A DNA stretch of 64,000 bases from Afifella marina DSM 2698 (lineage in GTDB: Bacteria; Pseudomonadota; Alphaproteobacteria; Rhizobiales; Afifellaceae): assembly GCF_900102695.1 (NCBI RefSeq), contig NZ_FMVW01000001.1, positions 620,001 to 684,000 on the forward strand, read 5' to 3'. A program made the translations under genes and the position numbers. The notes under the pieces are model-generated. The model was not told where the DNA came from. It was given only the letters and a program-made list of their open reading frames with translations, and did no database searches. This document shows, piece after piece, positions 26,764 to 50,624 of this stretch (position 1 is the stretch's first letter; each line of letters opens with the position of its first letter).

Positions 26764-26804
26764 TTCCGTCAGCCGCCTGCCGCCACCAGGACGAGGTGAT
26801 TGCG

Positions 26805-32801: not shown

Positions 32802-33331
32802 ACGCGGTTGCTTGCCATGGTGACCGCGGCCTCGACGAGATACCTCGTGCCCGGATCGGCCTTATCGAAACCCTCGCTGGGAAGGGGATGCCACCCCGCG
32901 CCATTTGCGAGGCTACCGGCGAACCGCTCTCTGCAATCGAGCTGGTCCTCGCCGCCCGGCGAAATGCTGTGAAGCGGGCAAAGGAACGGGATATCCGCGA
33001 GTTCTATAGCGTCCACGTGGTTGTCCCCTTCGCCCCTGTGCGGAGCCGCCAAGAGACAAACCTCGATCGCCCGGGGATGCGGATCGTCGTGGAGGTCGCG
33101 GCTGCGCACGGGGTGCGTGTGAGGGATCTGCAATCGGTCGCACGCAACCCCCGCATCAACGAGGCCCGGCAGGAGGCGATGTACCGGATCGCCTGCGAAA
33201 CGGACCTGCCTCTCACCGTGGTCGGCCGGCTTCTGCGGCGTGATCACTCCACCATCCAATACGGCGTGCGGGCACATGCGGCTCGCCACAATCTGCCGCT
33301 GCCGCGCGGCATGCAGGAGACAAAGCGATGA
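32798..33331 (+). CDS. Prophage protein with DnaA domain IV-like C-terminus
   Basis: A 177-residue protein. The N-terminal half is an unrecognised helical part (LIETLAGKGMPPRAICEATG may be an HTH). The C-terminal about 75 residues resemble the DNA-binding domain of the replication initiator DnaA (IVVEVAAAHGVRVRDLQSVA, then EARQEAMYRIACETDLPLTV, then VGRLLRRDHSTIQYGVRAHA). The family motif is usually VGR.FGRDHSTV. There is no ATPase domain. It could bind host DnaA boxes or compete with DnaA; function is inferred. The host gene broken by this prophage has the same type of domain. Confidence 0.8.
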   Translation: MNAVACHGDRGLDEIPRARIGLIETLAGKGMPPRAICEATGEPLSAIELVLAARRNAVKRAKERDIREFYSVHVVVPFAPVRSRQETNLDRPGMRIVVEVAAAHGVRVRDLQSVARNPRINEARQEAMYRIACETDLPLTVVGRLLRRDHSTIQYGVRAHAARHNLPLPRGMQETKR

Positions 33332-34074
33332 CCACGACCGTTGATGCCTCGAGCGATACCGCTACGCCTCCGGGTACCATCCAGGTTGGCGGAAAGACCT
33401 ATATGCAGGATGCCAAAGGCAGTCTGGTGCCGGTCGATCTGGTCAAGCCGATCGACCGGCTGCAGGACGAGACGGTCCGCAAGATGATCGTCTACGCCCG
33501 CGACCTGTCGGGGCAGATCGCCCGATTCAAAGGACATTGCTTCGACGATGTCGGGAGCCTGCAGGCACTGGTCGAGCAGGAATACGGAGCCACACTCGGC
33601 GGACGGAAGGGCAACCTGACGCTCACCACCGTCGACGGGACGCAGAAGGTGACGATCCAGGTTGCCGACCAGATCGAATTCGGCCCCGAACTGCAGGCGG
33701 CAAAGAAGCTGGTCGATCAATGTCTGTCGGAATGGGCGGAAGGCTCGCGCGACGAGTTGCGCGCCATCGTCAACCGAGCCTTCTCGGTCGACAAAGAAGG
33801 TCAGATCAACCGCTCGGAGCTGTTCATGCTCCTGCGCGTCGCGATCGAAGACGAGCGCTGGATGCGCGCGATGGACGCGATCCGCGATTCCATCCGGGTG
33901 ATCGGCTCGAAAACCTACATTCGCTTCTACGAGCGCCCTGCGCCGGACGCCGCCTGGCGGGCGGTCACCATCGATCTCGCGAGCGCATGCCCGCGCCGTC
34001 GTGGAGGCGCTCAAGGCGTGGTGCGAGCGCGAGGGCGTCGACTGGTCCGTGGGCCGCGCCACCGAGGACCATAA
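33328..34074 (+). CDS. DUF3164-family prophage protein
   Basis: A 248-residue protein matching the DUF3164 family, a standard part of Mu-like early operons. Visible core: GGKTYMQDAKGSLVPVDLVK, then ARFKGHCFDDVGSLQALVEQ and AIVNRAFSVDKEGQINRSEL, then RFYERPAPDAAWRAVTIDLA. The family normally ends close to that last motif. Here the frame runs about 25 residues further in Arg-rich sequence that is antiframe to the next gene, suggesting that the original stop was lost. Molecular role unknown. Confidence 0.85.
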   Translation: MTTTVDASSDTATPPGTIQVGGKTYMQDAKGSLVPVDLVKPIDRLQDETVRKMIVYARDLSGQIARFKGHCFDDVGSLQALVEQEYGATLGGRKGNLTLTTVDGTQKVTIQVADQIEFGPELQAAKKLVDQCLSEWAEGSRDELRAIVNRAFSVDKEGQINRSELFMLLRVAIEDERWMRAMDAIRDSIRVIGSKTYIRFYERPAPDAAWRAVTIDLASACPRRRGGAQGVVRARGRRLVRGPRHRGP

Positions 34075-34270
34075 GCGCCGCTACGGCTACAAGATCGCGC
34101 TGGCGCAGTGGCGCAAGCTCCATCCCGGCGCGCCGATGCCCGATTTCTGGCGCGACGCGTCGGCAATCCTCCGTCGCCCCCTCATCTCCCGAAAGCCGAC
34201 CGACGCGGAATGGATTACCGTGATGAACCGGTTCGGGGAGCTGGTGCGTGCAGAGGAGCGCGAGCGATGA
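34001..34270 (+). CDS. Small prophage protein, unknown
   Basis: An 89-residue protein from a GTG start (VEALKAWCEREGVDWSVGRA), overlapping the DUF3164 extension by 74 bases. It is basic and Trp-rich (YKIALAQWRKLHPGAPMPDF). No family recognised. The start is uncertain; its frame is open further upstream without an ATG. Overlaps the SNase gene by 4 bp. Confidence 0.6.
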   Translation: MEALKAWCEREGVDWSVGRATEDHKRRYGYKIALAQWRKLHPGAPMPDFWRDASAILRRPLISRKPTDAEWITVMNRFGELVRAEERER

Positions 34271-34680
34271 GGAACGGGCTCATCTTTCTGTTCGTCATGG
34301 TTTCGTCTGCACTCGCTGGCGAGGTGCCGCCACCCGCCCATGACGGTGACACGTTCTACGTCGCACCGGCAGCTGATACGCCGTTCTGTTCTCGTCTTCG
34401 GTGGGGGCGCTGGGAATCCATCCGCATTCTCGGCATCGACGCACCGGAAATGCACGGACGCTGCGAGTTGGAAAACCGGCTCGCGAGGGTTGCGCGCGAA
34501 AGGCTTCGAGAGCTCCTCGGCTCGGGCCAATTGGTACTCGATCGACGCGGCTGCGACCGCTACGAGCGTACGCTTGCCCGTGTCAGCGTCGGCGGTCACG
34601 ACATCGCAGAAGTGATGATTAGCGAGGGTCTGGCGCGACCGTATAGCGGGGGCCGCCGCCGCTCCTGGTGTGGGAGATGA
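34267..34680 (+). CDS. Exported SNase-like (thermonuclease) protein
   Basis: A 137-residue protein with a signal peptide (MRNGLIFLFVMVSSALAGEV) and a staphylococcal-nuclease-type domain. Features: HDGDTFYVAP, RWESIRILGIDAPEMHGRCE and CDRYERTLARVSVGGHDIAE, then MISEGLARPY. Basic and acidic residues at the expected active-site positions are present. Expected to be a calcium-dependent nuclease exported to the periplasm. It closes the early operon. Export of a nuclease by a prophage could degrade incoming DNA or salvage nucleotides; that is inference. Confidence 0.85.
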   Translation: MRNGLIFLFVMVSSALAGEVPPPAHDGDTFYVAPAADTPFCSRLRWGRWESIRILGIDAPEMHGRCELENRLARVARERLRELLGSGQLVLDRRGCDRYERTLARVSVGGHDIAEVMISEGLARPYSGGRRRSWCGR

Positions 34681-34703
34681 GGGTGCTGGTTGTCCTTACC
34701 TTA

Positions 34704-35186
34704 TCACTCGCCAAGAGTGCTGGAGGCGATAGTGACGAGCATCCTGCCCTCATTCATCTCGACCGTAAGGCGTGCTTGGTCGATCACGACCGATGGATCC
34801 CTCGACAAGCGTGCAGCTTTCTTGAAGAGATCGTAAAATGCATCTCTAATCCTCGGCGTTTCTACTTCGGGCAAGAGCGCAGATGTCACCGCCATCGTAA
34901 GAACAAGATTCGTTTTGTCGAGCGGTGTCGGAATATATATTGCGACCAGCTCCGGTGCCTGCGAAGGCTTTTTCGCGATAGCGACAACGCGGATCGAGTA
35001 GTTCAGAAGCGTGTGGCAGAGAGCGTTGCCATCAATCTCGCAGCCCAAGTCAGAAACTTTGGCATTTGTGCCTATCTTCCGGCTGAGAACACTCCCCAAA
35101 TCCTCTGCGCTTGTGCTGCTGAGAGAGGCTGCGCACGCAGGACTCGATACGGCGAGCAGCGCCCCAATCAAGATTGCTTTCAGCAT
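34704..35186 (-). CDS. Secreted hypothetical protein (prophage cargo)
   Basis: A 160-residue protein on the opposite strand to the surrounding phage operon, with a clear signal peptide (MLKAILIGALLAVSSPACAA). The mature part has two cysteines (DLGCEIDGNALCHTLLNYSI) that could form a disulfide. Composition looks less GC-rich than the phage genes around it. No family recognised. Strand, composition and isolated position mark it as a likely lysogenic-conversion (moron) gene. Confidence 0.65.
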   Translation of the reverse strand: MLKAILIGALLAVSSPACAASLSSTSAEDLGSVLSRKIGTNAKVSDLGCEIDGNALCHTLLNYSIRVVAIAKKPSQAPELVAIYIPTPLDKTNLVLTMAVTSALLPEVETPRIRDAFYDLFKKAARLSRDPSVVIDQARLTVEMNEGRMLVTIASSTLGE

Positions 35187-35293
35187 CTAGTCTCTCCCCG
35201 CGCTCAACCTGAGATAAAGAGTTCTATCGCTTGCCCAGAGGCCGAGCAACGCGACGCCCGGGCGCGGCGCCCACCGTTCTCAGGAGGCCACCG

Positions 35294-35356
35294 ATGAGCC
35301 TCTGCCGCGCCGTGGCAACACGAAAAAGAATGCCGCGAGGGGGAGGCGCCACATGA
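35294..35356 (+). CDS. Candidate 20-aa leader peptide before the Mor gene
   Basis: A 20-residue frame (MSLCRAVATRKRMPRGGGAT) starts six bases after a CAGGAGG site. Its stop codon overlaps the Mor ATG by 4 bp, while the Mor gene has only a weak site of its own. This suggests translational coupling. Confidence 0.4.
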   Translation: MSLCRAVATRKRMPRGGGAT

Positions 35357-35754
35357 CGCGCCTCCCGGGCATTCTTGCGGAGATTGCCGAGGTCGCGGGC
35401 GAAGAAGCGGCGCATGCGATCGCCCGTGCGCGCGGCGGAACGCGAGTTTATCTGCCGGGGCGCGCGGACGATGATCACTGGCTCACCCGCTGCGTCGGGC
35501 GGGAGGCCGCCGACGCGATCTGTCGGCATTTTGCGGCGGGCGGCCCGGATGGTTCCAGCGGTGCGAGTTATCTGATACCTCTCGGTCAGGCCGGATCGAC
35601 CAAGGGACGCCGCCGCGCCCTCGCTGCCGAGCTCCGACGCGGGGCGAGCGTCGCTGAGGCAGCCCGCGCGGTCGGGATGCATGAACGCACCGCCTGGCGG
35701 ATGCGAGCCAAACTCCAAAAAGATCGAGATGCTGATCAGGGCGAACTCTTCTAG
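35353..35754 (+). CDS. Mor-type middle/late transcription activator
   Basis: A 133-residue protein of the Mor/C family of Mu. The N-terminal dimerisation part reads MTRLPGILAEIAEVAGEEAA and includes DDDHWLTRCVGREAADAICR. The C-terminal HTH is AELRRGASVAEAARAVGMHE followed by RTAWRMRAKL. In Mu such proteins turn on the middle and late operons. It sits between early and late regions as expected and may activate the endolysin/tail operon beginning at 35835. Confidence 0.88.
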   Translation: MTRLPGILAEIAEVAGEEAAHAIARARGGTRVYLPGRADDDHWLTRCVGREAADAICRHFAAGGPDGSSGASYLIPLGQAGSTKGRRRALAAELRRGASVAEAARAVGMHERTAWRMRAKLQKDRDADQGELF

Positions 35755-35834
35755 CTGACATCTGTCAGGGTCGAAGGGAAAAGCTCCGCGGCGCACAACC
35801 GAAGCCGAACAATTGATCGGCGCCGCGCTCAGCC

Positions 35835-36755
35835 ATGACACCTACCATAGATCTTTTGGAGACAATTGCAGGCGGCGTGTCGACGAGCGCACGCCGCGCC
35901 AATATGGCCTCAATCGTCGCGGGTCTCGACGTCTACGGCGAGGAGGCGGGCCTCCTGCTGCCCCACCGTCTGGCGCAATACATCGCCCAGGTCGCGCACG
36001 AAAGCGCGCGGTTCATCCACGACCGGGAGATCTGGGGACCGACGGCCGCTCAGCGCCGTTATGATACGCGGACCGATCTCGGCAACACAGCCGACGCGGA
36101 TGGGGATGGTTACCTCTACCGCGGTCGCACGACCATGCAACTCACCGGGCGCAGGAACTACACCAAGTTCTTTGAGTGGTGCCTCGCCAAGGGCCTCAAT
36201 CCCCCAGACTTTGTTGCTGATCCCGCCGCGGTGAACACGGACCCTTGGGAGGGGCTCGCCCCGATTTGGTACTGGGACGTCGGAAACCCCGAAGGGCGCA
36301 GTCTCAACGTCTACGCCGACGACGGGAACAATGAGATGGTGACCCGCCGCATCAATGGCGGCACAACCGGGCTTCCTGATCGGCTCGAACTCTACACGCG
36401 CGCCGCGCTCGTCTTTCTCGGTTACGCACGCGCCACGATCGTCGGGTTTCTGGAGCCGGATGCGGCGGGTGCCATCGTTGTCGACAACGGGACGAAATAT
36501 GCCGTCTCGGCCGAGCGGACCCGCTGGCTGCGGGTGCGGTTGTCGCTGCCGCCCGGCACCTATGACGGCGAAATGATCCGCGAAATCGGATTGTTTGCCT
36601 CGCCGACCATCGCCCCGTCTGTCCCGGCCGGGCAGACACTCATCGATCCGGCAGACGTCTCCGATCCGGGCGACCTGATGCGTCTCATCTGGATGGAGCC
36701 GCAACCCATCACTGCCGGGACCAGCTACGCCCGCAACGTCATCATGAGGCTCTGA
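35835..36755 (+). CDS. Endolysin (GH19-like) fused to C-terminus of a tail protein
   Basis: A 306-residue protein with two unlike parts. Residues 1 to about 190 are a GH19/chitinase-like endolysin: catalytic-type Glu in AQVAHESARF (E56), second acidic region REIWGP, and the substrate-groove motif YRGRTTMQLTGRRNYTKF, ending INGGTTGLPDRLELYTRA. Residues about 200-306 (VGFLEPDAAGAIVVDNGTKY, then EMIREIGLFASPTI) look like the end of a phage tail/baseplate-distal protein that normally precedes the DUF4815 gene. The likely cause is an in-frame deletion that removed head and baseplate genes. Lysis activity may remain. No holin was recognised. Confidence 0.75.
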   Translation: MTPTIDLLETIAGGVSTSARRANMASIVAGLDVYGEEAGLLLPHRLAQYIAQVAHESARFIHDREIWGPTAAQRRYDTRTDLGNTADADGDGYLYRGRTTMQLTGRRNYTKFFEWCLAKGLNPPDFVADPAAVNTDPWEGLAPIWYWDVGNPEGRSLNVYADDGNNEMVTRRINGGTTGLPDRLELYTRAALVFLGYARATIVGFLEPDAAGAIVVDNGTKYAVSAERTRWLRVRLSLPPGTYDGEMIREIGLFASPTIAPSVPAGQTLIDPADVSDPGDLMRLIWMEPQPITAGTSYARNVIMRL

Positions 36756-39700
36756 TGCAGCTCGCCAATTACTTCAACCGCAGGAGTCTCCCCGGGTTTG
36801 TCGCAAAGCGCTATGCCGCCCTCCGCCACCGCGGCAAGCAGTTTGTCGAGAGCGCCGAGGCCAACGAGGCGCAGGACATCGCCTACGAACGGCTGGGTGA
36901 GGTGGGCGACGGAGCGTTCGGTGCGATCAGCCTCCGCGAAGGCGGGACGCTCATCGTCGATCAGGCGGCCGGGACCGTCCGCCTATCGGAGTCGCGGGTC
37001 TGGGCGGGGGGCTATATGCACCGGGTGCCGGCGGCAACGCTCGTGGGTGTGCCGATGGTCGGGAGCGTCGCGATCGGGGTGGCGGTCACGGATGTTGCCG
37101 TGACGGATGTCGACGACCCCGAATTGAAGGGCATCGTTCCAGACACGGCCAGCCATGGCGAGCCGTTGGCTGCCCGTCTGCGCTATGACGCGGTCTGGGC
37201 ACTCGACGGAGATCCGTTCTATCCGATTTTCACTTTGGTCGATGGTCAACTTCCGAACGAAGTGACGCCGCCGCAGGACAGCGCCGCCGAGATGACTGTC
37301 GAGCGCCATGTGCGCGAGGATCATGGCAGCCACGTCGTCGACGGGTTTCAGGTGTCGGCCGGCGGCTACGATGCGGCGACGGGCGAGCAGACCTACGTCA
37401 TCGGCGCAGGCGTCCTGCGCGCGGAAGGGCGCCGCGTGTCCCGCACGGTCGACCAGCGATACCGTCGCGTGGAGAATCCCACCCTCGTAGAGGTGAATGG
37501 TGAGACGCATCTTTATCCCGATGGCGGGGTGGTGACGCTCAACAACGGGCCGATCGACAGCGTTCAGACCGTCACAGTGATCAAGGAGGTCACGAAGAGC
37601 GTCACCCATCAGCTCGCGGGTGGTTCCGACGCCCTGCCTGACACACCGGTCTACGCCATCATGTCGGTCGCTCAGGGTGGCAACACCTATGCCGCCAATG
37701 CCGATTACAGGCTCACGGCAGACAAGGTGGATTGGAGCCCGAACGGGGCCGAGCCGTCAGCCGGGTCGACCTATTCTGTCACCTACCGCTACATCGAGAC
37801 GGTGATCCCGCAGGCGATCGGACGATCGACGATCGCGCTGGAGGCGGCCGTCGTCGGGCAGCCGGTGACAGCGAGTTACCGCTGGAAGCTGCCGCGCATA
37901 GACATCATCGCGATCGATCTCGACGGGGCCGTCGTTTACATCGAGGGCGTTTCGAGCCGCTACAATCCGGCCCCGCCGCGCGTGCCGGCACCGCTTGCGC
38001 CGCTGGTTCGGATCTCGAACCGGTGGGGCATCGAGCCGAACATCGAGGACGTCGACCAGCGCAAGCTCACCGAGGCGGATGTGCGGGCCATGCTGCGCAC
38101 GCTGCTCGACTTCGGCGACCTTCTGAGCCAAATCGCCCTGGAGCGCGACATCCAGGAGCGCGACCCTGCAAGCCGGCGAGGATCGTTCGTCGATCCGTTC
38201 CTGGACGATCTGCAGCGCGATCTCGGCATCGCGCAGAACGCGGCGATCGCCGATGGCATCCTGCAATTGCCGGTCGATTTCACGCCAATCTTTGCCGACC
38301 TCGGCAGCGAGGCCATCACGCTTCCCTATGTGAGCGAAGCGTTGATGAGCCAGCCCTACCGGACGGCGAGCCAGATCATCAACGAGTTCCAGGCGTTCGC
38401 GCCTCTGCCGTCACCTCTGACGATCGATCCGGCCGTTGATCGCTGGAACATCACACAGAGCTCGACGCGGTCGAGCTCGTCGAGTTCGGTCAAGCGGGTG
38501 AACAGCTATCGGCCCGATCTCCTCGGGACGTCGCTTTACGGGACCACCTCCCGCTCGACATCGCGGTCGGTTTCGACCCGGCTCGCGTCGCGATCGGTCG
38601 AAGATCTCGAATTCCTGCGCGCGATCGAGATCGCGTTCAACGTGACGTTCTTCGGTCCGGGTGAGGAGCTGCAAAGCGTGACCTTCGACGGGCTCGATGT
38701 GACGGAGAGTGTCACCGGAACCCGTGTGGCCAATGCCAACGGCGAGATGAGCGGCACTTTCACCATCCCGGAAAACGTCAAGGCTGGCACCAAGGCCGTT
38801 GTCGTCACCGGAAAAGGCGGCAGCCGGGGCGAGACCTCCTTCACGGGGCAAGGCACGCTGACGACGGAAGTCTATGTGCGCCGCGTCCACACGACCACGA
38901 CCTACACGACCATCGACCCGATCGCGCAGTCGTTCTTGATGCCGGCGATGCGACAAATCACGGGCGTGCGCGTCGAATTCGCGGGCAAGGGAGATGCGGG
39001 CAAACCCGTCGCGATCGAACTCCGCGATATGGATGGCTCGACACCTGGCACGGAAATCCTGGCGGCGGGACGGATCACCGGCGACTTTGCGCTTGGCGAT
39101 CCGCAGACCGACCGGGAGACCAACTGGACGCTGCTGCCCTTTGAATATCCTGTCTTGGTGGATGCCGGCGAATGGCGAGCCTTTGCGCTGTTGACCGACG
39201 ACGCCGATCATGCGGTCGCAATTGCACGGCTCGGCGATCAATCGGGTGATGCGCCGACCGGCTTCGATCCGCGACGCCAGGAATGGGTGCGCGAAAACCC
39301 CGCCGGCGGTGATCTCTTCAAAGGCTCGAATGGCAAGACATGGCTTGCGATGCCCGATGCCGACATGACGCATCAGATCATGGTGGCGCGCTACACGGCG
39401 ACGAGCCGCACCTTTGTCATCGGCAGCTACGATCTCTCCGAGATCGATGCCGCGGGGATCTCTGACCTCGTCGTCCTGCTCATCTACGAGGAGCCGACGG
39501 TCGAGACGAAAGTGACGATCGAGCTGGTGCGGGAAACCGGCGAGATCGTGGCCTTTGAGCCCAATACGCGGCTCGAGCTCGACGATTATCTGACGGAAGA
39601 GGTGACGCTCCGGATGGTGCTGACCGGCACAGAGACATTGTCGCCGGTCGTCATGCCGGAATGTCAGATCCTCTTCGGCCGGCTTGCGGAGACGGCAAGC

Positions 39701-39994
39701 TATATCTCAGAGGCGATCGCGCTCGACCAGACGCACGGCGACCTCAAGGTGCGCTCGGTGCTTGAGGTCAGTGCGCCCGGAACATCATCGGTGGCGGTTG
39801 CAGTCGGCGACGATGAGGCATGGAGCGAGCAGGCCGATCCGGCCTCGGTCTCGCTCGGGGATGGGTGGATAGAGCGGGAATATCTGGACGGCCCGGTTTC
39901 TGCGCCCGAACTCCGCGAGCGGATCACGCTGACCGGTACGCCCCGCTATCGGCCTCTGGTGCGCAATCTTCGGGTGCGGGCGACGGAGGTCTAA
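36755..39994 (+). CDS. DUF4815-family phage tail protein
   Basis: A 1079-residue structural protein matching large DUF4815-type tail proteins of contractile phages. N-terminal: MQLANYFNRRSLPGFVAKRY. The central part has a Ser/Thr/Arg-rich linker (about residues 569-610). The C-terminal half carries the DPIAQSF motif (TIDPIAQSFLMPAM) followed by beta-rich domains (RQITGVRVEFAGKGDAGKPV) and ends in a VRNLRVRATEV strand. It likely forms part of the tail tip or the fibre base. It starts in the stop codon of the endolysin fusion gene and shows no break. Confidence 0.85.
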   Translation: MQLANYFNRRSLPGFVAKRYAALRHRGKQFVESAEANEAQDIAYERLGEVGDGAFGAISLREGGTLIVDQAAGTVRLSESRVWAGGYMHRVPAATLVGVPMVGSVAIGVAVTDVAVTDVDDPELKGIVPDTASHGEPLAARLRYDAVWALDGDPFYPIFTLVDGQLPNEVTPPQDSAAEMTVERHVREDHGSHVVDGFQVSAGGYDAATGEQTYVIGAGVLRAEGRRVSRTVDQRYRRVENPTLVEVNGETHLYPDGGVVTLNNGPIDSVQTVTVIKEVTKSVTHQLAGGSDALPDTPVYAIMSVAQGGNTYAANADYRLTADKVDWSPNGAEPSAGSTYSVTYRYIETVIPQAIGRSTIALEAAVVGQPVTASYRWKLPRIDIIAIDLDGAVVYIEGVSSRYNPAPPRVPAPLAPLVRISNRWGIEPNIEDVDQRKLTEADVRAMLRTLLDFGDLLSQIALERDIQERDPASRRGSFVDPFLDDLQRDLGIAQNAAIADGILQLPVDFTPIFADLGSEAITLPYVSEALMSQPYRTASQIINEFQAFAPLPSPLTIDPAVDRWNITQSSTRSSSSSSVKRVNSYRPDLLGTSLYGTTSRSTSRSVSTRLASRSVEDLEFLRAIEIAFNVTFFGPGEELQSVTFDGLDVTESVTGTRVANANGEMSGTFTIPENVKAGTKAVVVTGKGGSRGETSFTGQGTLTTEVYVRRVHTTTTYTTIDPIAQSFLMPAMRQITGVRVEFAGKGDAGKPVAIELRDMDGSTPGTEILAAGRITGDFALGDPQTDRETNWTLLPFEYPVLVDAGEWRAFALLTDDADHAVAIARLGDQSGDAPTGFDPRRQEWVRENPAGGDLFKGSNGKTWLAMPDADMTHQIMVARYTATSRTFVIGSYDLSEIDAAGISDLVVLLIYEEPTVETKVTIELVRETGEIVAFEPNTRLELDDYLTEEVTLRMVLTGTETLSPVVMPECQILFGRLAETASYISEAIALDQTHGDLKVRSVLEVSAPGTSSVAVAVGDDEAWSEQADPASVSLGDGWIEREYLDGPVSAPELRERITLTGTPRYRPLVRNLRVRATEV

Positions 39995-41554
39995 ATGCAC
40001 GACGATCGCACGTCCGCTCTCGCCCTTCCGCTCCCGCACAAGGAGAACGATCCCTATGCGGTCGATGTCGATCGCATCCGAGCGGCGCTCATCATCATAT
40101 CTGATGCCATCGCGGCAGCGCAGTCAGATATTGCGGCGGCGGTCACTCAGGCTGACATCGACCGGGCGGTGGCGGCCGCGATCGATGAGCTCAAAGGCAA
40201 TGCGCCGGCGGCCTATGACACCTTGGTCGAGATCGCTGCCAAGCTCGGCGATCAAGACGATGTCGTTTCGGCTTTGATCACTCAGCTATCAACGAAGGCG
40301 GATGCGGACGAGACATTGGCAGCACTCGCCGCCCGGTACACAAAGACGGAAGTCCAGGGGCTGGTGGCTGGGGCCACGACCGGGATGCTGACGCTAGCGG
40401 ATGTCATCGGCTATCAGACCATCGCGGCGGGGGCTGGGCATCTTCTGCCCGACGAAACGAGCGGGCCGGAGCCTTCCGTCGTCACGATCAATGGCGTGCC
40501 GTATGACACCCTCGCATTCGATCCCAATTCGCAAGAAACCGCCTACCTGACGTTTCCCCTCCCCAATTCGTTCGCCGCCGGGGGCACGCTGAAATGCGGG
40601 GTTGTGTTCACGCATGAGGGGGCGGCTCCAGAGACAGTCGATGTCGATGAAGATGCCGTGCCCTGGGAGCTAGGCGGCGTGGCAGTCGATCCCGCAACGG
40701 GCAACTTGCTCATCTCAGAGGTTGGCTCTTCCGTTTATGTCACCAGTGGCTTCAATGGCGATGTTCTTGATCATTTTTCCGTTTCAGATCCACGTGGCCT
40801 CGTCGTGGATCCGAGCACGGGCGACCTGGTCTGCATCGATGGGGTTGGGTCGATCTTTCGGCATGAGGGCATTGGTCGGAAGGTTAAAGATGGGCCGCGG
40901 CTTGTCGAGGCTGGTGTCGCTTGTCGGGACATCACTGTCGATGCTGCAAGCGGCCGTTTCTACGCGTGTGCGTCCGATCCAGGCATGATCTATGAGTTGG
41001 ATAGCTCCTTCAATGTCATCGACAGTTTTCCTGCTCCAACCCACTCTGTCTGGGGCATCGCGATTGATCTGGAGGGTAATCTATGGACGTGCAGCGCTGT
41101 AGCCGCTCCCGATGAACCACGAAAGTTGCGGCGCCATGCCGGCGTGACTGCGACCGTTGCCGCTGTCTTTGACTTACCCACGACGAGCCCTCGTGGGATG
41201 ACGTTTGATCTGCAGGGCAGATTGATCATTTCCGGGGGGCCGGACGGCGCTCTCTATCTGGTCGCCACAACGCCTGGCGTTGCGTTCGCCTTCTCGGCCG
41301 GCACCGCCGGCGATGGTGACATGCTCGGTGCGCTCGGCGGAGCCGTTGTCTCCACCGGCGCTTGCAGCCTTGTCGCCGGTGGCCGCTGGCGCACAGCGGA
41401 GATCGATCTACCACTACCGGGGTCGCAGCCAGGCGACCAGCTCACGATCCGCGTCGATCGCGCCGTCGCCAATGCGGCCGACAATCTTGGCGTGCTGGCG
41501 CATCTGCTCGGGCCGGAGATCAAATACCCGACCGCGACCCCGACGGACAATTGA
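39995..41554 (+). CDS. Tail-fibre-like protein with beta-propeller
   Basis: A 519-residue protein. The N-terminal about 130 residues are helical and coiled coil (IISDAIAAAQSDIAAAVTQA, then DIDRAVAAAIDELKGNAPAA), as in tail-fibre shafts. From about residue 220 there is an NHL/SMP-30-like propeller with repeated G(V/L)AVDP.TG.L units (GVAVDPATGNLLISE, LVVDPSTGDLVCID, ITVDAASGRFYACA, IAIDLEGNLWTCS, MTFDLQGRLIISG). The end is a small beta-rich domain. Likely a receptor-binding fibre; the propeller is an unusual module for a fibre. Confidence 0.8.
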   Translation: MHDDRTSALALPLPHKENDPYAVDVDRIRAALIIISDAIAAAQSDIAAAVTQADIDRAVAAAIDELKGNAPAAYDTLVEIAAKLGDQDDVVSALITQLSTKADADETLAALAARYTKTEVQGLVAGATTGMLTLADVIGYQTIAAGAGHLLPDETSGPEPSVVTINGVPYDTLAFDPNSQETAYLTFPLPNSFAAGGTLKCGVVFTHEGAAPETVDVDEDAVPWELGGVAVDPATGNLLISEVGSSVYVTSGFNGDVLDHFSVSDPRGLVVDPSTGDLVCIDGVGSIFRHEGIGRKVKDGPRLVEAGVACRDITVDAASGRFYACASDPGMIYELDSSFNVIDSFPAPTHSVWGIAIDLEGNLWTCSAVAAPDEPRKLRRHAGVTATVAAVFDLPTTSPRGMTFDLQGRLIISGGPDGALYLVATTPGVAFAFSAGTAGDGDMLGALGGAVVSTGACSLVAGGRWRTAEIDLPLPGSQPGDQLTIRVDRAVANAADNLGVLAHLLGPEIKYPTATPTDN

Positions 41555-41559
41555 GGGTG

Positions 41560-42126
41560 ATGACCATGAACATGATCATGCATGCCCTCGTGTCTCCCGA
41601 GGGCGAAATCGTTGACCGCCGACTACAAGACCCGGAAAATCTCCCTGCGACACGTCCCGGCTGGCGCTGGTTGGTCGAGATCCGCGAAGACGCCGCGGTT
41701 GACCCCGACAGCGAAGTGGAGGTGGAAGAGACGGTCACCGTCGAGGTTGATCGCGTCGTGCGTGCGCGCGGAAAGCGGGCGCTGACGACCGCGGAGCTCG
41801 ATGCCTATGTCGCAGAGCATCATCGCGACAGCCTTACTGCGGGAATCAACTGGCAGGGCCGCCAAATCGCGATCGACGAGAAGTTCGTCTCGCGCATTAC
41901 CGGCGCCGCGCTCAAAGCCTCGCGTGATCCGGCGCATGTCTTTCGCTGGGAGGTGACCGACAAGGTCTTCGTGTCCATCGATGCAGAGACGGCGATCACG
42001 CTGGCAGATCTCGTCGTTGATCGCATGCAGGCGTGCTTCGACGCTAAGGATCGAGCTTATGCTGCGATCTCAAACGGATCGATCACCAACAAGGCGCAGG
42101 TGCGCGCTGAGTTTGGGGATCTGTGA
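41560..42126 (+). CDS. DUF4376-type phage tail accessory protein
   Basis: A 188-residue protein with an N-terminal part resembling tail-fibre assembly proteins (PATRPGWRWLVEIREDAAVD) and a C-terminal DUF4376-like helical domain (INWQGRQIAIDEKFVSRITG, then FVSIDAETAITLADLVVDRM). Such genes follow fibre genes and help fibre folding or attachment. Overlaps the next gene by 3 bases. Confidence 0.75.
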   Translation: MTMNMIMHALVSPEGEIVDRRLQDPENLPATRPGWRWLVEIREDAAVDPDSEVEVEETVTVEVDRVVRARGKRALTTAELDAYVAEHHRDSLTAGINWQGRQIAIDEKFVSRITGAALKASRDPAHVFRWEVTDKVFVSIDAETAITLADLVVDRMQACFDAKDRAYAAISNGSITNKAQVRAEFGDL

Positions 42127-42602
42127 TGGCGCTCAACGGGGCCGCGTTGACGCTCCTCGGCGGGAGGAGGGGGCCAACGGTCCCCGCCTACAAATATTAC
42201 CGCATTCGGTGCTTAAGCTTCTCCGCAAACTATTGGTGGCGCGTGCGAGAGTTCGAACTTTATCCTGAGAGCGGACTTGCTGGCACCAAGCTCATAGGGA
42301 CGGCCTCTGCAAGCAGCCAGAAATCAACAAGTGAAATTCCGGCTAGAGCAGTCGATGGCAATCTCGAAACCTATTGGGGTGCACGCACAAGCCGCGCCGC
42401 GAATGTGGATCAGTGGTTTCAGATCACGCTGCCCAAGGCCGCGATCGTGCTGTCAGCTCGCTTCTCGGTTTATTCAGGTCCAGGTCACCATGCCAATCTC
42501 ATCGCCTGGGAGGGCTCTGAGGACGGGATCAACTGGATCGTCCTCGACGAGCAGCCGGGCACATCCACCAATAGGGCCTGGGTTAATTTCGAGAGACGGT
42601 AA
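42126..42602 (+). CDS. Discoidin (F5/8 type C)-domain phage protein
   Basis: A 158-residue protein. After a short Gly-rich start, residues about 15-158 form a carbohydrate-binding discoidin-like beta-sandwich: RIRCLSFSANYWWRVREFEL, then ARAVDGNLETYWGARTSRAA, and WFQITLPKAAIVLSARFSVY, then WEGSEDGINWIVLDEQ. Its place after the fibre genes suggests a surface-glycan-binding tail component. Confidence 0.78.
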   Translation: MALNGAALTLLGGRRGPTVPAYKYYRIRCLSFSANYWWRVREFELYPESGLAGTKLIGTASASSQKSTSEIPARAVDGNLETYWGARTSRAANVDQWFQITLPKAAIVLSARFSVYSGPGHHANLIAWEGSEDGINWIVLDEQPGTSTNRAWVNFERR

Positions 42603-42837
42603 CAGGACGGTCTTACGTTCACCCTGATATTCAGCTGCCCCGTGCGCTCATGGATAAAGGGGTGGGCAGGCTCAACGCGACGGTGTGCAAACCGCTTCGA
42701 GCCACCATTGCTGCGATGCAGATGGTCTTGTGAGGGTCGTCGGTGCCCGAATCGTTCTTAAGCGTCTATCCATCGGCCTCCACTACCCTCTGAGGCGCAA
42801 TAGTTTGTCCGAAATTGCGGCGGGAGTTGATCTATTG

Positions 42838-44160
42838 ATGGAGTCTCTCAGGGCTAAGTCTCTGCGGTTCTGGGTTGCCCTTGGGATGTGTCTTGCCTTG
42901 ACGCCGCTGATCGTTTCCGGCGTCGGAGGATACTTCCTGCTCCAGCGCGGGGTCATCATGCCGTTCGATGACGTGGCCGATCGGCAGCGTCATCAGATCG
43001 CTCCGGTGCAGCAGTTGCGCTTCCTTTTGTGGGAAACCCTCAAGCCGATCGATGAGTATATCGAGGAGAATGATCCATCCCACATTCCCGCCTATCGCGA
43101 TCTTCGCGAGCGAATTGAGTCGGGCTTCGCAAGTCTTCTTGAAGTGCTAGGCGACAAGCCCGCTCTTCAGGCGTTGGTGAAAAGGGCTCGGGCTGACTGG
43201 TCTGAGGCGGACGTTCATGCCACCGACCTGCTCGCTGCAGATCTAAATGCCGACGGCACGACAAACCCACGAGCCTTGCAGCTTTTCCACGCTCACGTTT
43301 TGGCTGCGAATGATAAGCTGGCCGGCGCTTATCGAGAGCTCGTTACGGTGATCGAACGCGATCACGATATAGCTCTCAAATCTTACGAGAAATCTCTGTG
43401 GATCGCTGCAATTGCAGGGGTCATTTCGCTCATCATGCTTATCGGTGGCTTAGTCATCATTGGGCGCATTCTCAAGGCGAGCGTTGATCGGCTTGTCGAT
43501 GGTGCGGTTCGCTTCGCCGAAGGTGACCGGCTCCATCGCATCAAAGTGCACGTTCCTCCGGAGCTTCGCCGCGTGGCGGATGAGTTCAATCATATGATCG
43601 AACGTATCCATGAGTCCGAGGCAGTCTTGTCGGAGATGGCGCATCGAGACAGCTTGACGGGGCTTCTCAACCGAAGAGCTTTCGACGACGCCTTTCCCGA
43701 GCTTCAGGCGCGCATGTTGCGTCATGGGGAGGTCGCTAGCCTCCTGGCTATCGACATTGATAAATTCAAAGAGACAAACGATGAGCACAGCCATGCGGCA
43801 GGAGACGAGGTTCTCCGCACCGTGGCTGAGTTAATGGCACAGCACGTGAGAACTTCCGACAGTCTCTTTCGACTGGGAGGGGAGGAGTTCGCTGTACTTC
43901 TCTCACAAACTGGCTTGGAAGAGGCGCATGAGGTGGCGGAACGCCTCCGTGAAGCGATCGCAGCGACGGCAATCCAGTACGAAGGTGCGGAGATTAGGAC
44001 GACCATCAGCATCGGCATCGCCGAGGTTTTAGCGCGCTTTCCTCAGGAAGTGACGATGAGCACGGCTGATAACGCCCTCTACCTTGCAAAGACACAGGGC
44101 CGAAACCGGGTCGTGATCTCCGACGAACGCGGATCGTCCGCGAGGCCGGGGTCTACTTGA
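42838..44160 (+). CDS. Prophage-encoded membrane diguanylate cyclase
   Basis: A 440-residue protein. Membrane helix 1 is at about residues 11-35 (FWVALGMCLALTPLIVSG). A periplasmic helical sensor region follows (about 40-180), then helix 2 (LWIAAIAGVISLIMLIGGLV), a HAMP-like linker (about 210-265) and a GGDEF domain. The active site reads RLGGEEFAVLL, the metal site IDIDKFKETND, and the RxxD inhibitory site is present (VRTSD), so product-inhibited cyclic-di-GMP synthesis is expected. A 235-base gap separates it from the discoidin gene, so it probably has its own promoter. It is not a phage structural gene; best seen as lysogenic-conversion cargo. Confidence 0.88.
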   Translation: MESLRAKSLRFWVALGMCLALTPLIVSGVGGYFLLQRGVIMPFDDVADRQRHQIAPVQQLRFLLWETLKPIDEYIEENDPSHIPAYRDLRERIESGFASLLEVLGDKPALQALVKRARADWSEADVHATDLLAADLNADGTTNPRALQLFHAHVLAANDKLAGAYRELVTVIERDHDIALKSYEKSLWIAAIAGVISLIMLIGGLVIIGRILKASVDRLVDGAVRFAEGDRLHRIKVHVPPELRRVADEFNHMIERIHESEAVLSEMAHRDSLTGLLNRRAFDDAFPELQARMLRHGEVASLLAIDIDKFKETNDEHSHAAGDEVLRTVAELMAQHVRTSDSLFRLGGEEFAVLLSQTGLEEAHEVAERLREAIAATAIQYEGAEIRTTISIGIAEVLARFPQEVTMSTADNALYLAKTQGRNRVVISDERGSSARPGST

Positions 44161-44213
44161 GGAGGACGTCGGGACCAGTCACCAAGCGTCGCGTTCGTTT
44201 GGCGGGCGCGCCG

Positions 44214-44450
44214 TCAGCAGGCGCAGCCCGGGCCCTTGTGGCACGTCTTGTTGCGGGCGATGCAGGAGTTGCCGCATGGTTTCCCCTTGCTGCAGTGCTT
44301 GCAGCACGCAGCTGGCTGGACCGGTAGGGGCGTGATGTTCGTCTGGGCCTCGTGGGCTGGCCCTTTCAAGGCGGCGGCGATATCAAGCGTCGGGGCAGCT
44401 TGAGAGATGCTGGTCAAAAGCACCAGACTGACGATAAATAGGGCTCTCAT
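44214..44450 (-). CDS. Small secreted cysteine-rich protein
   Basis: A 78-residue protein with a signal peptide (MRALFIVSLVLLTSISQAAP). The C-terminal 30 residues hold eight cysteines in a CCKHC-x2-GKPCGNSCIARNKTCH-x3-GCAC pattern, seen in small secreted bacterial proteins and some nuclease-linked domains. I do not know a function. Its strand is opposite to the phage late genes and it follows the diguanylate cyclase, so it is likely cargo. The start at 44450 excludes an implausible upstream extension. Confidence 0.6.
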   Translation of the reverse strand: MRALFIVSLVLLTSISQAAPTLDIAAALKGPAHEAQTNITPLPVQPAACCKHCSKGKPCGNSCIARNKTCHKGPGCAC

Positions 44451-44601
44451 ATCGGTTTCCCTCCCCGCGCGAAGGGTTGCGGATACGCGCGCAAAAGTCG
44501 AGTGAGAGATTGCCGCGGCCGCCCCTGACACCTGTCAGTCTGATCTGATCCCACACCCGCAGCTAGCGTTGCCAGCAGAACTTGTCCTGCCGGAGCGCCC
44601 A

Positions 44602-47600
44602 ATGGCTGCCACCACCGACTTCGTCGGCGTCCGTGTTTTTTCGAACTTGCGCAACACGACGGTCTCGATCGACACGCGCGATTCGACGCCGATCGGCATG
44701 TGTCTGCCGCTTCCCAACATCGAAGCCGCCAACGAGACGGCGTTCCCGATCGACGAGCCGGTCCGCCTGGCAACAGACAATCCCGAGCAGCTCGCCAGGC
44801 TTGGACCTGGCATCGCTTATGATGCCATCCGCCAGATCAAATCCGAGGGGATCGAGACCGACATCATCTTCGTGCGGGCACGCCATGATGACGATCTCGA
44901 AACCCAGATTGGCCATATCGCCGGCGATGCCAATGCGGTGACCGGCGCATGGGCGCTCGCCGAAGCGCTGTCGGAGCTGCAGATCGAGCCGGGGCTGGTG
45001 ATCGCGCCTGGCTTCGATTCACAGCGCCTCGGAGAGGCGCCCAATCCGGTCGCGACGACGCTCGATGCCGTCTGCGAGAAGATCATCGATTGCATGGCGG
45101 TCGTGAACACGCCGGAGACGAGCCGCGAGGCGGCCGCCGAATACGCGGCCGATTTCGCGACCTCTTACAACGTGATCGCCATGTATCCGCAGGGACGATA
45201 CGCCATGGCCGCCATGACGGCCGAGATGTATGGACCAGGTCAGCGCCAGAAGATCCTGGAAACCAACAAACAGCTCGGCGTGAAGTATGGTGTGACCCAG
45301 GCGGAGGTCGATGCCGCCCGGCGCGTTTTCATCGGCGCCAACATGGATTTGGCGAGCCAGGACGAATCTCTCGGTCCGACGTTGCGCGCGGCCGTTGGCT
45401 CCGGCTCAAGCTCGGCGACGATCGCGAGCGCGGGGCGCGCATATCTGCAGACCATGAAGGGAACGCCCGCAGATCTCCCTGCCGCCTACGACATCATGGC
45501 GAAGGGCGGTAAGCTCGGGACTTTCGAGTTGGAGGCTCTCGCCCGCAACCTGCCAGCGCTCGGTTCGCAATATGCGGCTGCCGGCGGCACAGGCCTTAAC
45601 GGGCTTTCCGAACTCGTGGCGCTTGCAGAGGTCGCAGCCAAAGGCGCGGCAAGCGAAGACCAGGCGGCAAACAATCTTCAGAATTTTCTGTCGAAGCTCT
45701 TCTCCCCGGAAACCGTGCGGAACTTTAAGGAGAAGCGCGTCAACCTCCCGAAGCTCGTCGGGAATGCGAGGCAGGAAGGCAAACATCCGGCGCTTGCTGT
45801 TCTCGATGAGGCTATGCGGCTCACGGATGGCGATCCCTTCAAGATGGGGGAGCTTTTCGCCGATCAACAGGTGATGGCGGCGCTTCGTCCCTTGATGGAC
45901 AACCGCGAGCTGCTCTCGCAGTACCAAACGGAGCTGCAAACGGGATCCGCTGGCACGGTGCAGCGGGATTTTGACTACTATCGGCAGACCCCAGCGGGCC
46001 TCGAAAAACGCCAACAGGCAGAACGGGAAGCTGCGCAGATCGCCGTCGGCCAATCCGCCAATCCCGCCTCACAGCATCTCTCCGAAGCTTACACGCGGGT
46101 TTGGAAGGATATCGAAGAGGGCGCGCGGATATGGGAAGAGAAGGGAGCGGCGGCCTTCGGCCTGAACCTGATCCGACATCACCCGCTTCTCGGAGGAGAA
46201 CAGTCGCTCTTCAAGCGGTATTTCGGCAGCAAGGATCCGTACGACGAGAGCGAGACCGAGGCCCCGTCGCGCGAGGCTGTCTCCGCTAAACTGGAAGAGC
46301 TGAAAGCGGCCCTCCTTGCCAAGGAGACTGAGCTCTCGGGGCTTCCAAAGCCGAAATATGAGGGCATCGCTATTCCTGATGCGACTGCGTCGAAGCTCAC
46401 GATCGAGATCACGCAACTGCGTGCTGCTATCGAGAGCCTCGAAAGACGACTTCGTGGAGGCAACGGTGGCAGCGGAGAGATCGGCGGTGGCGGCAGCGAC
46501 GAAGATCTCGGCGGCAGTGCCGGCGGAGATCGGCTCTTGCATCCGACGTCGTTCGGCGGGGCTTACGGCCGGGGCAGTGCGCCGCGCCGCCGCTCGGCGC
46601 GCGCTTATGGCGCCGGTGGCGCAGGAGCCGCGCCTTTTGTCGGAGGTGATGCGTCCACGCGCTTTCTCAATGCGGTTGCGGAGGCAGAGGGCACGCGCGG
46701 CTACAACACGTCTCTCGGGCACGGGCGCTTTTTGCCGGGAGGTCAGGAGCACGATCTCACCTCGATGACACTCGATGAGGTGAGCGCGCTCGGCGATTAC
46801 ATGCGTCGCCAGCCCGGCAATCCGAACTCGTCGGCCCTTGGGCGCTATCAGATTGTGGGTTCCACCATGCGCACGGCAGCCGAGGCGCTCGGCATGGACC
46901 CGGCCAAAACACGCTTCGACAAGACAACCCAGGACCGGATGGCGCTCTGGATCGCCAAGAACCAGGGGCTCGGCGCGTGGGAGGGATTTCGGGGCCATGC
47001 GCAGGCGCGCCGCGCGGCCGAAGCGGCGATCGGCGACGGGGCGCTCAGGCAGCGGGCGGAAGCTGCGCATTTCGGAGCTGGCGGGCCGCTCGCCGATCTG
47101 TCCTATGCCAATTCTGAGGCGATCCGGAACAGGACGGTCACGCCACAGCTCGAAGAGGATATCCGGCGCGGTGTCGCCGCGGTCTACGGTGAGGGCTACC
47201 GTGCCGAGATCTATTCCGGCGGTCAGCCCGCGAAGGGCACAGGCGGACGGCGCACGGGCTCCACCCGTCACGATGATCATGGGCATGGCGGGGAAGCGCC
47301 CGACCTCTATGTCTATGGACCGGACGGCAAGAAAGTTCGCGGTGCGGATCTCGCGCGCCTTGGCCAACATTGGGTCGCGCAAGGCCTGGGCGGTGTCGGT
47401 CTGGAGATGGGCGGCGGTGGCATCCATCTCGACCAGCATCGCGATCGCGCGCGGCATTGGCATTACGGCATCTATTCGCCCGAGCAGGCGGCCATGATGC
47501 GGCGCGGTCTCGCCGGCGAACCGCCCGAATACGCCAATCCGCGAGCGCTCGACCCGGAGAATTTTGCCGAGGACGGCTGGGCGAAGGACGAGACGCAGCG

Positions 47601-47817
47601 CCCGAGACCGCGCCCGGGCGCCGGGGCCGGGCCGGGACGGAAACCGACGAGCCTGTCGCAGCCTGCCGCACAACCGGCCGGATCGATGAATGTCACGCAG
47701 CATTTCCACGGCGTCGACCCGCAGGTGATGGCGGCACGTGCGGCACGCGCGCAACGCCGCGCGATCGCCATGGCGGAAGCGCGCGCCATGCACGACACCT
47801 CCGTGCCGGTCGCCTGA
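44602..47817 (+). CDS. Tail sheath N-terminus fused to tape measure protein
   Basis: A 1071-residue protein made of two unlike parts. Residues 1 to about 195 match the N-terminus of contractile tail sheath proteins (AFPIDEPVRLATDNPEQLAR, then ALSELQIEPGLVIAPGFDSQ and ATTLDAVCEKIIDCMAVVNT). Near residues 195-205 (bases about 45187-45217) the sequence changes to a tape-measure protein (ILETNKQLGVKYGVTQAEVD, helical repeats to about 600). At about 678-811 is a lambda-R-type transglycosylase domain (FLNAVAEAEGTRGYNTSLGH, then SSALGRYQIVGSTM). At about 872-960 is an M15-like peptidase motif (HDDHGHGGEAPDLYVYG, HWHYGIY). The junction implies deletion of sheath end, tube and chaperone genes. It cannot serve as a working sheath. 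Confidence 0.82.
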   Translation: MAATTDFVGVRVFSNLRNTTVSIDTRDSTPIGMCLPLPNIEAANETAFPIDEPVRLATDNPEQLARLGPGIAYDAIRQIKSEGIETDIIFVRARHDDDLETQIGHIAGDANAVTGAWALAEALSELQIEPGLVIAPGFDSQRLGEAPNPVATTLDAVCEKIIDCMAVVNTPETSREAAAEYAADFATSYNVIAMYPQGRYAMAAMTAEMYGPGQRQKILETNKQLGVKYGVTQAEVDAARRVFIGANMDLASQDESLGPTLRAAVGSGSSSATIASAGRAYLQTMKGTPADLPAAYDIMAKGGKLGTFELEALARNLPALGSQYAAAGGTGLNGLSELVALAEVAAKGAASEDQAANNLQNFLSKLFSPETVRNFKEKRVNLPKLVGNARQEGKHPALAVLDEAMRLTDGDPFKMGELFADQQVMAALRPLMDNRELLSQYQTELQTGSAGTVQRDFDYYRQTPAGLEKRQQAEREAAQIAVGQSANPASQHLSEAYTRVWKDIEEGARIWEEKGAAAFGLNLIRHHPLLGGEQSLFKRYFGSKDPYDESETEAPSREAVSAKLEELKAALLAKETELSGLPKPKYEGIAIPDATASKLTIEITQLRAAIESLERRLRGGNGGSGEIGGGGSDEDLGGSAGGDRLLHPTSFGGAYGRGSAPRRRSARAYGAGGAGAAPFVGGDASTRFLNAVAEAEGTRGYNTSLGHGRFLPGGQEHDLTSMTLDEVSALGDYMRRQPGNPNSSALGRYQIVGSTMRTAAEALGMDPAKTRFDKTTQDRMALWIAKNQGLGAWEGFRGHAQARRAAEAAIGDGALRQRAEAAHFGAGGPLADLSYANSEAIRNRTVTPQLEEDIRRGVAAVYGEGYRAEIYSGGQPAKGTGGRRTGSTRHDDHGHGGEAPDLYVYGPDGKKVRGADLARLGQHWVAQGLGGVGLEMGGGGIHLDQHRDRARHWHYGIYSPEQAAMMRRGLAGEPPEYANPRALDPENFAEDGWAKDETQRPRPRPGAGAGPGRKPTSLSQPAAQPAGSMNVTQHFHGVDPQVMAARAARAQRRAIAMAEARAMHDTSVPVA

Positions 47818-47819
47818 CC

Positions 47820-48227
47820 ATGGGCATCCGGATCACGGCCGCAATCGGCAACGCCAAACTGGAAGTGCCGGGGCTCAGTCCGCAGCGCATTTCCACCGAG
47901 AGCGAGGCCAGGTTCCCCGCCGCTGCGACCTGGAAAGGCATGGATTATCAGGCGACGGGGCTGGGCGAGAAGCGGCTCGTCATCGAGGCGCGGACCGCCC
48001 CGCATGTCTTCAAGGGCTTGGATGCCCTGGGCTGGCTGATCCGTCATCACGAGGCATCAGAGCGGGTAAATTACAACCGTCTGGGAGCGGCCTATGCCTG
48101 CACCGTCGGCGGGCCCGTCTCCATCAGGGCGCTCTATTACAATGAGACCCATCTCCACCCATTCGACGGCGTCGGCCGCATCGTCGACGTAGAGATTGAC
48201 CTCATCGTGCATCGGAGCGTGCGATGA
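47820..48227 (+). CDS. P2 gpU-like tail protein
   Basis: A 135-residue tail protein in the position of P2 gpU (after the tape measure gene, before X and D). Features: LGEKRLVIEARTAPHVFKGL and ALGWLIRHHEASERVNYNRL, then YYNETHLHPFDGVGRIVDVE. In P2 gpU caps the tail. It follows the fusion gene by two bases and overlaps gpX by 4. Confidence 0.82.
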   Translation: MGIRITAAIGNAKLEVPGLSPQRISTESEARFPAAATWKGMDYQATGLGEKRLVIEARTAPHVFKGLDALGWLIRHHEASERVNYNRLGAAYACTVGGPVSIRALYYNETHLHPFDGVGRIVDVEIDLIVHRSVR

Positions 48228-48436
48228 AGACCGTCTACACGGTGAGCGAAGACGAGCGGCTCGATCGGCTGGCAAAGGCGATCTACGGCACGGAGCAGGG
48301 CGGCACGGTTGAGGCACTCCTCAACGCCAATCCGGGGCTTGCCGCGAAAGGCATGATCGTGCCGGCCGGGACTGAACTCGTGATCCCCGAACAGGTGGCG
48401 GCCGAGGAGCCCGCGCTCGTGCGGCCCTGGGATTGA
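48224..48436 (+). CDS. Tail protein X (LysM-like)
   Basis: A 70-residue protein matching P2 gpX: YTVSEDERLDRLAKAIYGTE, then LLNANPGLAAKGMIVPAGTE and LVIPEQ. The family has a LysM-like fold and belongs to the tail/baseplate. The frame overlaps the tail D gene region by TTGA. Confidence 0.88.
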   Translation: MKTVYTVSEDERLDRLAKAIYGTEQGGTVEALLNANPGLAAKGMIVPAGTELVIPEQVAAEEPALVRPWD

Positions 48437-48441
48437 GGCCG

Positions 48442-49458
48442 ATGCGGCGCGATCCCCATATCTCCGTGACGGGCCCGGACGGCGTCAATCTGGCGGAGCG
48501 GTTGTGCGACGTCTTCGTGGGCATCCGCGTGAGTGACTTCGCCGGGGGCGAGGTCGACGAGTTGCACATCATCTTTCGCCGACAGAAGCCTTATTTGATG
48601 CCACCGCCCCCTGGGACCGTTTTCACGGCCCGCCTCGGCTGGGAGGCCGAGCGTGCGCAGATGATGGGTGAGTTCGCCTATGAGCGCACGCTCTACAGCG
48701 GCGAGCCGGAGAGCGGTCAGGAGATGATCCTGGTCTGCCGGGCGGCCGATCTCACCGATGCCTGGAAGCGGGTGGATTCTGAACATTTCGACGATGAGAC
48801 CGGCCACAAAACCTACGGCGACGTTCTGCGGACGCTGGCCAGCAAGGCCGGAGTCGACGTGGCGATTGATGCGACGCTCGATGCGCTTCCCCTTCCGAGC
48901 GGCTATCTTCTGCGCTGGAAACAATCGGCGATCGGGCTTGCAACCGAGATTGCCGATGATCTCGGGGCGATCGTCAAGCTGCAGGCGGGCAAGCTGACCG
49001 TTCGTCGCCGCGGGTCGTTCACCTCGCCATCCGGAGGCGAGCTGCCGGCGATCGCCATCCCCTTCGATCCCAACTACGCCTTCCAGGCCGACATCGAGCC
49101 GCGCTACGGCTTCTCTGAGGTCGCGGCCGGCTGGTTCGATGATCGGGCCGGCCGGGCGGCCGATCTGGTGCACGCTCTGTCTGGTGGTTTCGCGCGCCTG
49201 GCGCTGCCGCATCTTGCCGGTTCCGAGGCGTTTGCAAAGGCCTCGGCCGAAGCTGCCGCGCAAAAGCTAGAGGCCGAAAGCGCCACCGCCTATTTCGAGA
49301 TGGCAGGCAACGCCGCAGCCGTCGCCGGCGCGCCGGTCAAGCCCGAAGGCTTCGGCCCGGACATCGACGGCGTCAATTGGGAGGCGATTGCCGTCTACCA
49401 CGATGCAGGGCCAGATCGGGGCTGGATCACCACCGTCGAGGCGGCGCTGGCATGGTGA
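48442..49458 (+). CDS. Phage late control protein D / tail hub
   Basis: A 338-residue protein of the P2 gpD (tail hub) family: VTGPDGVNLAERLCDVFVGI, then RVSDFAGGEVDELHIIFRRQ and MMGEFAYERTLYSGEPESGQ. The ATG at 48442 is used; a TTG three codons upstream overlapping gpX is possible. It is the last structural gene of the element. No downstream late-control fusion is seen. Confidence 0.85.
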   Translation: MRRDPHISVTGPDGVNLAERLCDVFVGIRVSDFAGGEVDELHIIFRRQKPYLMPPPPGTVFTARLGWEAERAQMMGEFAYERTLYSGEPESGQEMILVCRAADLTDAWKRVDSEHFDDETGHKTYGDVLRTLASKAGVDVAIDATLDALPLPSGYLLRWKQSAIGLATEIADDLGAIVKLQAGKLTVRRRGSFTSPSGGELPAIAIPFDPNYAFQADIEPRYGFSEVAAGWFDDRAGRAADLVHALSGGFARLALPHLAGSEAFAKASAEAAAQKLEAESATAYFEMAGNAAAVAGAPVKPEGFGPDIDGVNWEAIAVYHDAGPDRGWITTVEAALAW

Positions 49459-49599
49459 CGAGCGGGGGGCGCGTGCCGATCTCCAGTCGGTTGAAACGAC
49501 CTACTCCTTATCGGAAGGGCGCCCAAGGCGCGCTGGGGAGCTCCTCGTGCAGAAGAGCTCGACTTGCGGGAGATAGTCGAGGTTTGCGCAGTACCGCGC

Positions 49600-50490: not shown

Positions 50491-50578
50491 GTTTCGCCCC
50501 CGCATTCTGCGGCTATCACCGTATCAGTTAGAGAGCGATTTGAGAGCATTCGGCGCGTGGTGACCACAGCAAAACGGC

Positions 50579-50596
50579 TGCCATTTGATCTTGCGC
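50579..50596 (-). promoter_or_regulatory. Transposase end site R2
   Basis: On the minus strand GCGCAAGATCAAATGGCA, identical to left site L3. It lies 28 bases inside the right end. Confidence 0.75.
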
Positions 50597-50600
50597 GTCA

Positions 50601-50618: not shown

Positions 50619-50624
50619 GCTACA

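Follow-up and report, generated by a model that had tools for sequence, protein, structure and literature searches.

Laboratory mini-Mu derivatives retain the ends of the phage together with MuA and MuB, with the structural genes deleted; on a natural mini-Mu, our literature search returned nothing relevant. Ochrobactrum phage POA1180 (Abaiavirus) is a Mu-like phage with a full gene set, whose order runs from Mor and the endolysin through the lysis, packaging, head and baseplate genes to BW3TFN (gp17), DUF4815 (gp18) and the fibers, followed by cargo, sheath, tube, chaperone, tape measure, U, X and D. Incomplete prophages have a published signature, in which terminase, portal and lysis genes are lost and transposase and tail-fiber genes are kept (PMC7744054). 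We analyzed a 64-kb window of a 1.02-Mb contig in the Afifella marina DSM 2698 genome (3.96 Mb, 99.7% complete, 24 contigs) and found in it a 25,688-bp element (24937..50624, + strand) that shares the POA1180 order from Mor and the endolysin onward, although its transposase is merely 25% identical to that of the phage. We interpret this element as very probably a cryptic, defective Mu-like prophage that carries AbiTii and GGDEF genes as cargo, the product of ordinary decay by deletion.

Ends, insertion site and transposition genes

The original prediction described a head-less Mu-like element at positions 35835-47817, and the element proved to be larger than that span. Comparison with four Afifella genomes that do not contain it gave its exact limits: it begins with TGTA, ends with TACA and is flanked by a 5-bp target site duplication, CCACC, the left (24932..24936) and right (50625..50629) copies of which are represented by a single CCACC in the two closest empty sites. 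TG...CA ends and a 5-bp target duplication are those of a Mu-like transposable phage. Repeats resembling transposase sites, with the consensus CGCGCAAGATCAAATGGCA, are present three times at the left end (24942..25120, + strand; starts 24942, 25059 and 25102) and twice at the right end (50579..50619, - strand; starts 50579 and 50601), a total of five end copies to be read against a background of 1.2 matches per 64 kb in shuffled sequence. Their spacing, 117 and 43 bp on the left and 22 bp on the right, is identical in a sister element of A. pfennigii DSM 17143 (NZ_JHZK01000002; TGTA/TACA ends, target site duplication AGATG). The target of the insertion is a small host gene encoding a DnaA C-terminal-type domain (24622-24936 and, beyond the element, from 50630); this gene loses its end to the element here and is whole in congeners. 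None of the other Afifella genomes compared contains the element. A second DnaA C-terminal-type domain is encoded by the element itself (32798-33331).

The left part of the element contains an S24/HTH repressor gene (25474..26202, - strand; Pfam; 68.7% identity to an Aurantimonas relative in the C-terminal part), followed on the + strand by genes encoding a Ner-like regulator (26428..26763; 68% to an Aurantimonas relative), a ParB-like protein (26983..27807; Pfam ParB_N), a MuA-type transposase (28289..30628; Pfam rve, Mu-transpos_C and HTH_Tnp_Mu_1, and alignment) and a MuB/TniB-type ATPase (30628..31374; Pfam; 67% to Aurantimonas). Alignment indicated that the DDE residues of MuA are conserved, and a DDE transposase accompanied by a MuB ATPase is the pairing found in Mu-like phages. 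The C-terminal ~30 residues of MuA (30530-30628) reach into the start of MuB; most relatives end sooner. Farther to the right, also on the + strand, are genes for an endonuclease-like protein of the SNase type (34267..34680; PHROG endonuclease) and a Mor/C-like late activator (35353..35754; phrog_836; 47% identity over the full length to POA1180 Mor). Of the Mor/C late activator and the early genes DUF3164 and GemA expected in a Mu-like phage, Mor and DUF3164 are present and GemA is truncated. The gene at 27807-28292 and its counterpart in A. pfennigii share 92.5% identity, whereas the adjoining MuA and MuB are only 69% and 43% identical, a contrast that points to strong mosaicism. Most of the retained genes for which relatives could be compared align over almost their whole length, and the prediction that transposition genes, ends, fibers and cargo remain open was confirmed: the element has an intact MuA, DDE residues included, as well as intact MuB, ends and target site duplication.

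Two in-frame fusions and an out-of-frame joint

The first fusion gene (35835..36755, + strand; 306 amino acids, open) encodes an endolysin (residues 1-196) joined to the C-terminal part of a BW3TFN protein (197-306), the former GH19-type and the latter a baseplate-wedge/fiber-network protein. Profiles identified endolysin/chitinase at residues 10-208 and BW3TFN/phrog_1394 at 195-304 (profile positions 52-172 of 174); homology to POA1180 gp52 (endolysin) extends to residue ~194-204, and homology to gp17 starts at residue 195. Residue alignments place the joint, J2, at residue 195-197 (DNA 36417-36425). In POA1180, the lysis genes, terminase, portal, protease, capsid, neck and baseplate lie between these two genes, and the loss at J2 is ~15 kb as estimated from POA1180 coordinates, with the circular permutation of that record considered. 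No other genome among 289 of the class has both halves in one ORF; the halves match separate ORFs, with weak endolysin matches trailing slightly past the joint. The fusion was also not found in phage records or in IMG/VR, where the scans reach close relatives only. An apparent match to a lysin of Mycobacterium phage BirdsNest (88% coverage) was rejected as spurious, the C-terminal half alone being dissimilar.

The endolysin has a second match in the genome (C13:706927), which we considered and rejected as a second copy of the element; it is a separate lysin by a gene-transfer-agent (GTA)-like tail gene. At C13:704111-707568, ~20 kb beyond the end of the window, the GTA-like tail gene (identified from its translation) is followed by this GH19-type lysin. 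Identity between this lysin and the endolysin half of the fusion is 50%, and over a shared 101 bp their DNA is 82% identical.

The second fusion gene (44569..47817, + strand; open) joins the N-terminal part of a sheath protein to a tape measure protein, as indicated by alignments and by profiles for sheath (residues 10-202), tape measure phrog_794 (211-515) and PhageMin_Tail (232-380). Sheath identity to three relatives is ~55% up to residue 210 (YPQGR) and fades beyond it, tape-measure profiles begin at 211, and residue alignments place the joint, J3, at residue 210/211 (DNA 45198/45199). The native sheath start is at 44602, and the sheath part, counted from there, comprises residues 12-210; the original prediction had given it as sheath residues 1-195. 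Lost at J3 are the second half of the sheath, the tube, the chaperone and the start of the tape measure, ~2.2 kb as estimated from relatives. No ORF in another genome among 249 of the order contains both parts, and the fusion is absent from phage records and from IMG/VR (scans again limited to close relatives). Both in-frame fusion ORFs are therefore where the original prediction had put them, and alignment with relatives has fixed their joints. The same joints did not turn up in the genomes of the order or class or in phage records, and we found no homologue with both halves that would make either protein a normal family architecture.

Between the fusions, on the + strand, are a full-length DUF4815/VrlC tail protein gene (36755..39994; profiles and relatives), tail fiber, DUF4376 and F5/8-type C genes (39995..42602; profiles) and, as cargo, a HAMP-GGDEF diguanylate cyclase gene (42838..44160; Pfam). 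The GGDEF gene lies between the fiber and sheath genes, where POA1180 has a methyltransferase, marking this position as a cargo slot. Tail genes U, X and D follow the second fusion at full length (47820..49458, + strand; profiles and relatives). A second cargo gene, encoding the AbiTii defense protein (49600..50490, - strand; Pfam and PADLOC), places an abortive-infection function directly inside the right-end repeats.

A third joint, J1 (33987..33991, + strand), connects the end of DUF3164 to the interior of GemA and is out of frame. The DUF3164 gene (33328..34074, + strand) is without its own stop: in relatives the protein terminates at the position matching residue 220 (...TIDLASA, stop), while here 28 more residues (221-248) result from read-through, and codon-position GC shifts past residue 220. 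The DNA from 33991 on matches the interior of GemA in the A. pfennigii sister at 84% identity and is read in a different frame (GemA assigned by Pfam). The bases CATG fit the DUF3164 stop region and a GemA histidine codon alike, and J1 likely formed via this ~4-bp microhomology. The loss at J1 is ~2 kb of early genes, estimated against Aurantimonas and Amorphus relatives; the sizes at all three joints are estimates drawn from relatives and not from the parent element itself.

Homology switches sharply at all three joints. The two deletion points originally proposed are both real, but there are three, and only the in-frame ones had been noticed because in-frame joints leave long ORFs. Preservation of the reading frame, true for J2 and J3, loses force as an argument once J1 is counted: the chance of at least two of three joints being in frame is 0.26, taking 1/3 per joint, and two of three is unremarkable. 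The locus thus offers a caution that in-frame fusions may be read as selection when an out-of-frame joint is overlooked.

The almost whole endolysin domain and the open frames could also suggest domestication, with the fusions or the tail remnant serving the host as a secreted lysin or a tailocin. A contractile tailocin, however, requires a tube, a whole sheath and a baseplate, and here the sheath is cut at ORF residue 210 and nothing in the assembly matches the tube or baseplate V/J; moreover, the positions of holin and spanin are lost and other Afifella genomes do not have the element. We regard domestication as extremely improbable. If the element instead arose by deletion, as we favor, the fused proteins would be accidents with no role in phage assembly, since no tail can be built from half a sheath plus a tape measure when tube and baseplate are missing.

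Missing virion genes

We joined the terminase, portal, capsid, tube and baseplate V and J proteins of POA1180 into one query, which had no match anywhere in the assembly and matched strongly in five control genomes, A. pfennigii among them. For baseplate W and I, absence was deduced only from the lack of a remaining ORF between Mor and DUF4815. The claim that head and baseplate genes are gone therefore stands by assembly-wide search for terminase, portal, capsid, tube and V/J, and by lack of ORF space for W/I. The element does not have the terminase, portal, capsid, tube and baseplate of a complete Mu-like phage, and deletion of such essential virion genes is what characterizes a cryptic or defective prophage.

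A prophage that was collapsed or misjoined by an assembly or sequencing error could look similar, and the assembly is a draft in 24 contigs. The element, however, lies inside a 1.02-Mb contig with clean flanks and a target site duplication, and the missing genes are on no other contig; an artifact is very unlikely. An identical IMG/VR record probably represents the same genome and is not independent proof of the joints.

The A. pfennigii sister carries terminase, portal, protease, capsid, sheath, tube and baseplate genes, the head genes being confirmed by PHROGs. Terminase, portal and capsid were sought in 13 records with a related MuA; in 12 of these, the MuA match covers most of the protein. 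A clear terminase, or a terminase and portal (G537 and similar), was present ~10-16 kb from MuA in 10 of the 12; G548 has a weaker terminase match (E = 1.7e-13) inside which the contig ends, and in G544 the terminase match is weak and lies next to clear portal and capsid matches. With G548 counted as clear, 11 of the 12 have a clear terminase match and one a weak match. Because the near-full-length-MuA relatives that we checked have terminase matches, no head-less lineage is seen. In the 13th record, Aureimonas sp. Leaf324 (L093 10001-10246), MuA residues 1-35 are joined to 334-370 in one ORF, with no terminase, portal or capsid match, and this record is a second case of deletion decay in the group. 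Similar prophage contigs C29 (L048) and C28 (L049) of genome G079 both carry DUF4815 and sheath homologues, and both end in or near the sheath-tube region.

The original prediction also raised the possibilities of a capsid-less transposon and of a satellite relying on a helper phage. A natural helper-dependent mini-Mu that had retained its ends, MuA/MuB and perhaps a packaging site could transpose by itself or be packaged by a complete Mu-like relative infecting the same cell, spreading AbiTii. Consistent with this scenario, the element has a MuA with conserved DDE residues, MuB, a repressor, complete ends with sister-like spacing and defense cargo at its right end, and a complete relative exists within the genus (A. 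pfennigii). Yet the element is present as a single copy in its genome, Mu-type head genes were not found in that genome, and no second head-less copy with intact MuA was found in the genomes and records searched; we consider this scenario unlikely. As a description, capsid-less transposon fits an element that retains intact MuA, MuB, ends and target site duplication, but there is no sign that the capsid-less state has been selected. The satellite proposal was not supported: no second copy of the architecture turned up in the genomes searched, unlike the recurrent gene set that PICI-like satellites show in several genomes, and we found no Mu-type head genes in the genome that could serve as a resident helper, no conserved head-less relatives and no recognizable capsid-hijacking gene.

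Decay by deletion and comparison with known systems

Random decay, the other possibility originally offered, is the reading that our data support: there are three joints, one of them out of frame, neither fusion was found elsewhere, and head genes are present in relatives that share the transposase. A Mu-like phage with the broad gene order of POA1180 transposed into the DnaA C-terminal-type host gene, a step documented by the target site duplication, the empty sites and the ends. Three internal segments were lost, before or after insertion and probably by illegitimate recombination, namely the early segment, the segment from lysis, packaging, head and neck to baseplate, and the segment from sheath end to tape-measure start. 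With terminase, portal, capsid, tube and baseplate not found, a virion could not be built and particles would presumably not be made. Transposition inside the cell may still work under repressor control, given that the repressor, MuA, MuB and ends are retained. Against decay are the open state of the remaining ORFs, the perfect target site duplication, the codon-position GC, which resembles that of coding sequence on either side of both fusion joints, and the two joints in frame; the first three of these suggest that decay is recent or has been checked by selection.

The element provides a clean case of Mu-like prophage decay, with precise ends, an intact sister in the genus and three mappable joints. 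Should it still travel with a helper, it would count as a natural mini-Mu and might represent a new way of spreading defense genes.

The A. pfennigii sister resembles the A. marina element in MuA (69%), in one early gene (92.5%), in end-repeat spacing and in its TGTA/TACA ends, but it is 39,875 bp long and has a whole head and a tail of another type. Compared with laboratory mini-Mu derivatives, the A. marina element is natural and present in a single copy. The cryptic prophages described previously (PMC7744054) show the same losses and retentions; in the A. marina element, these losses take the form of three clean joints within one Mu-like element whose ends are intact.
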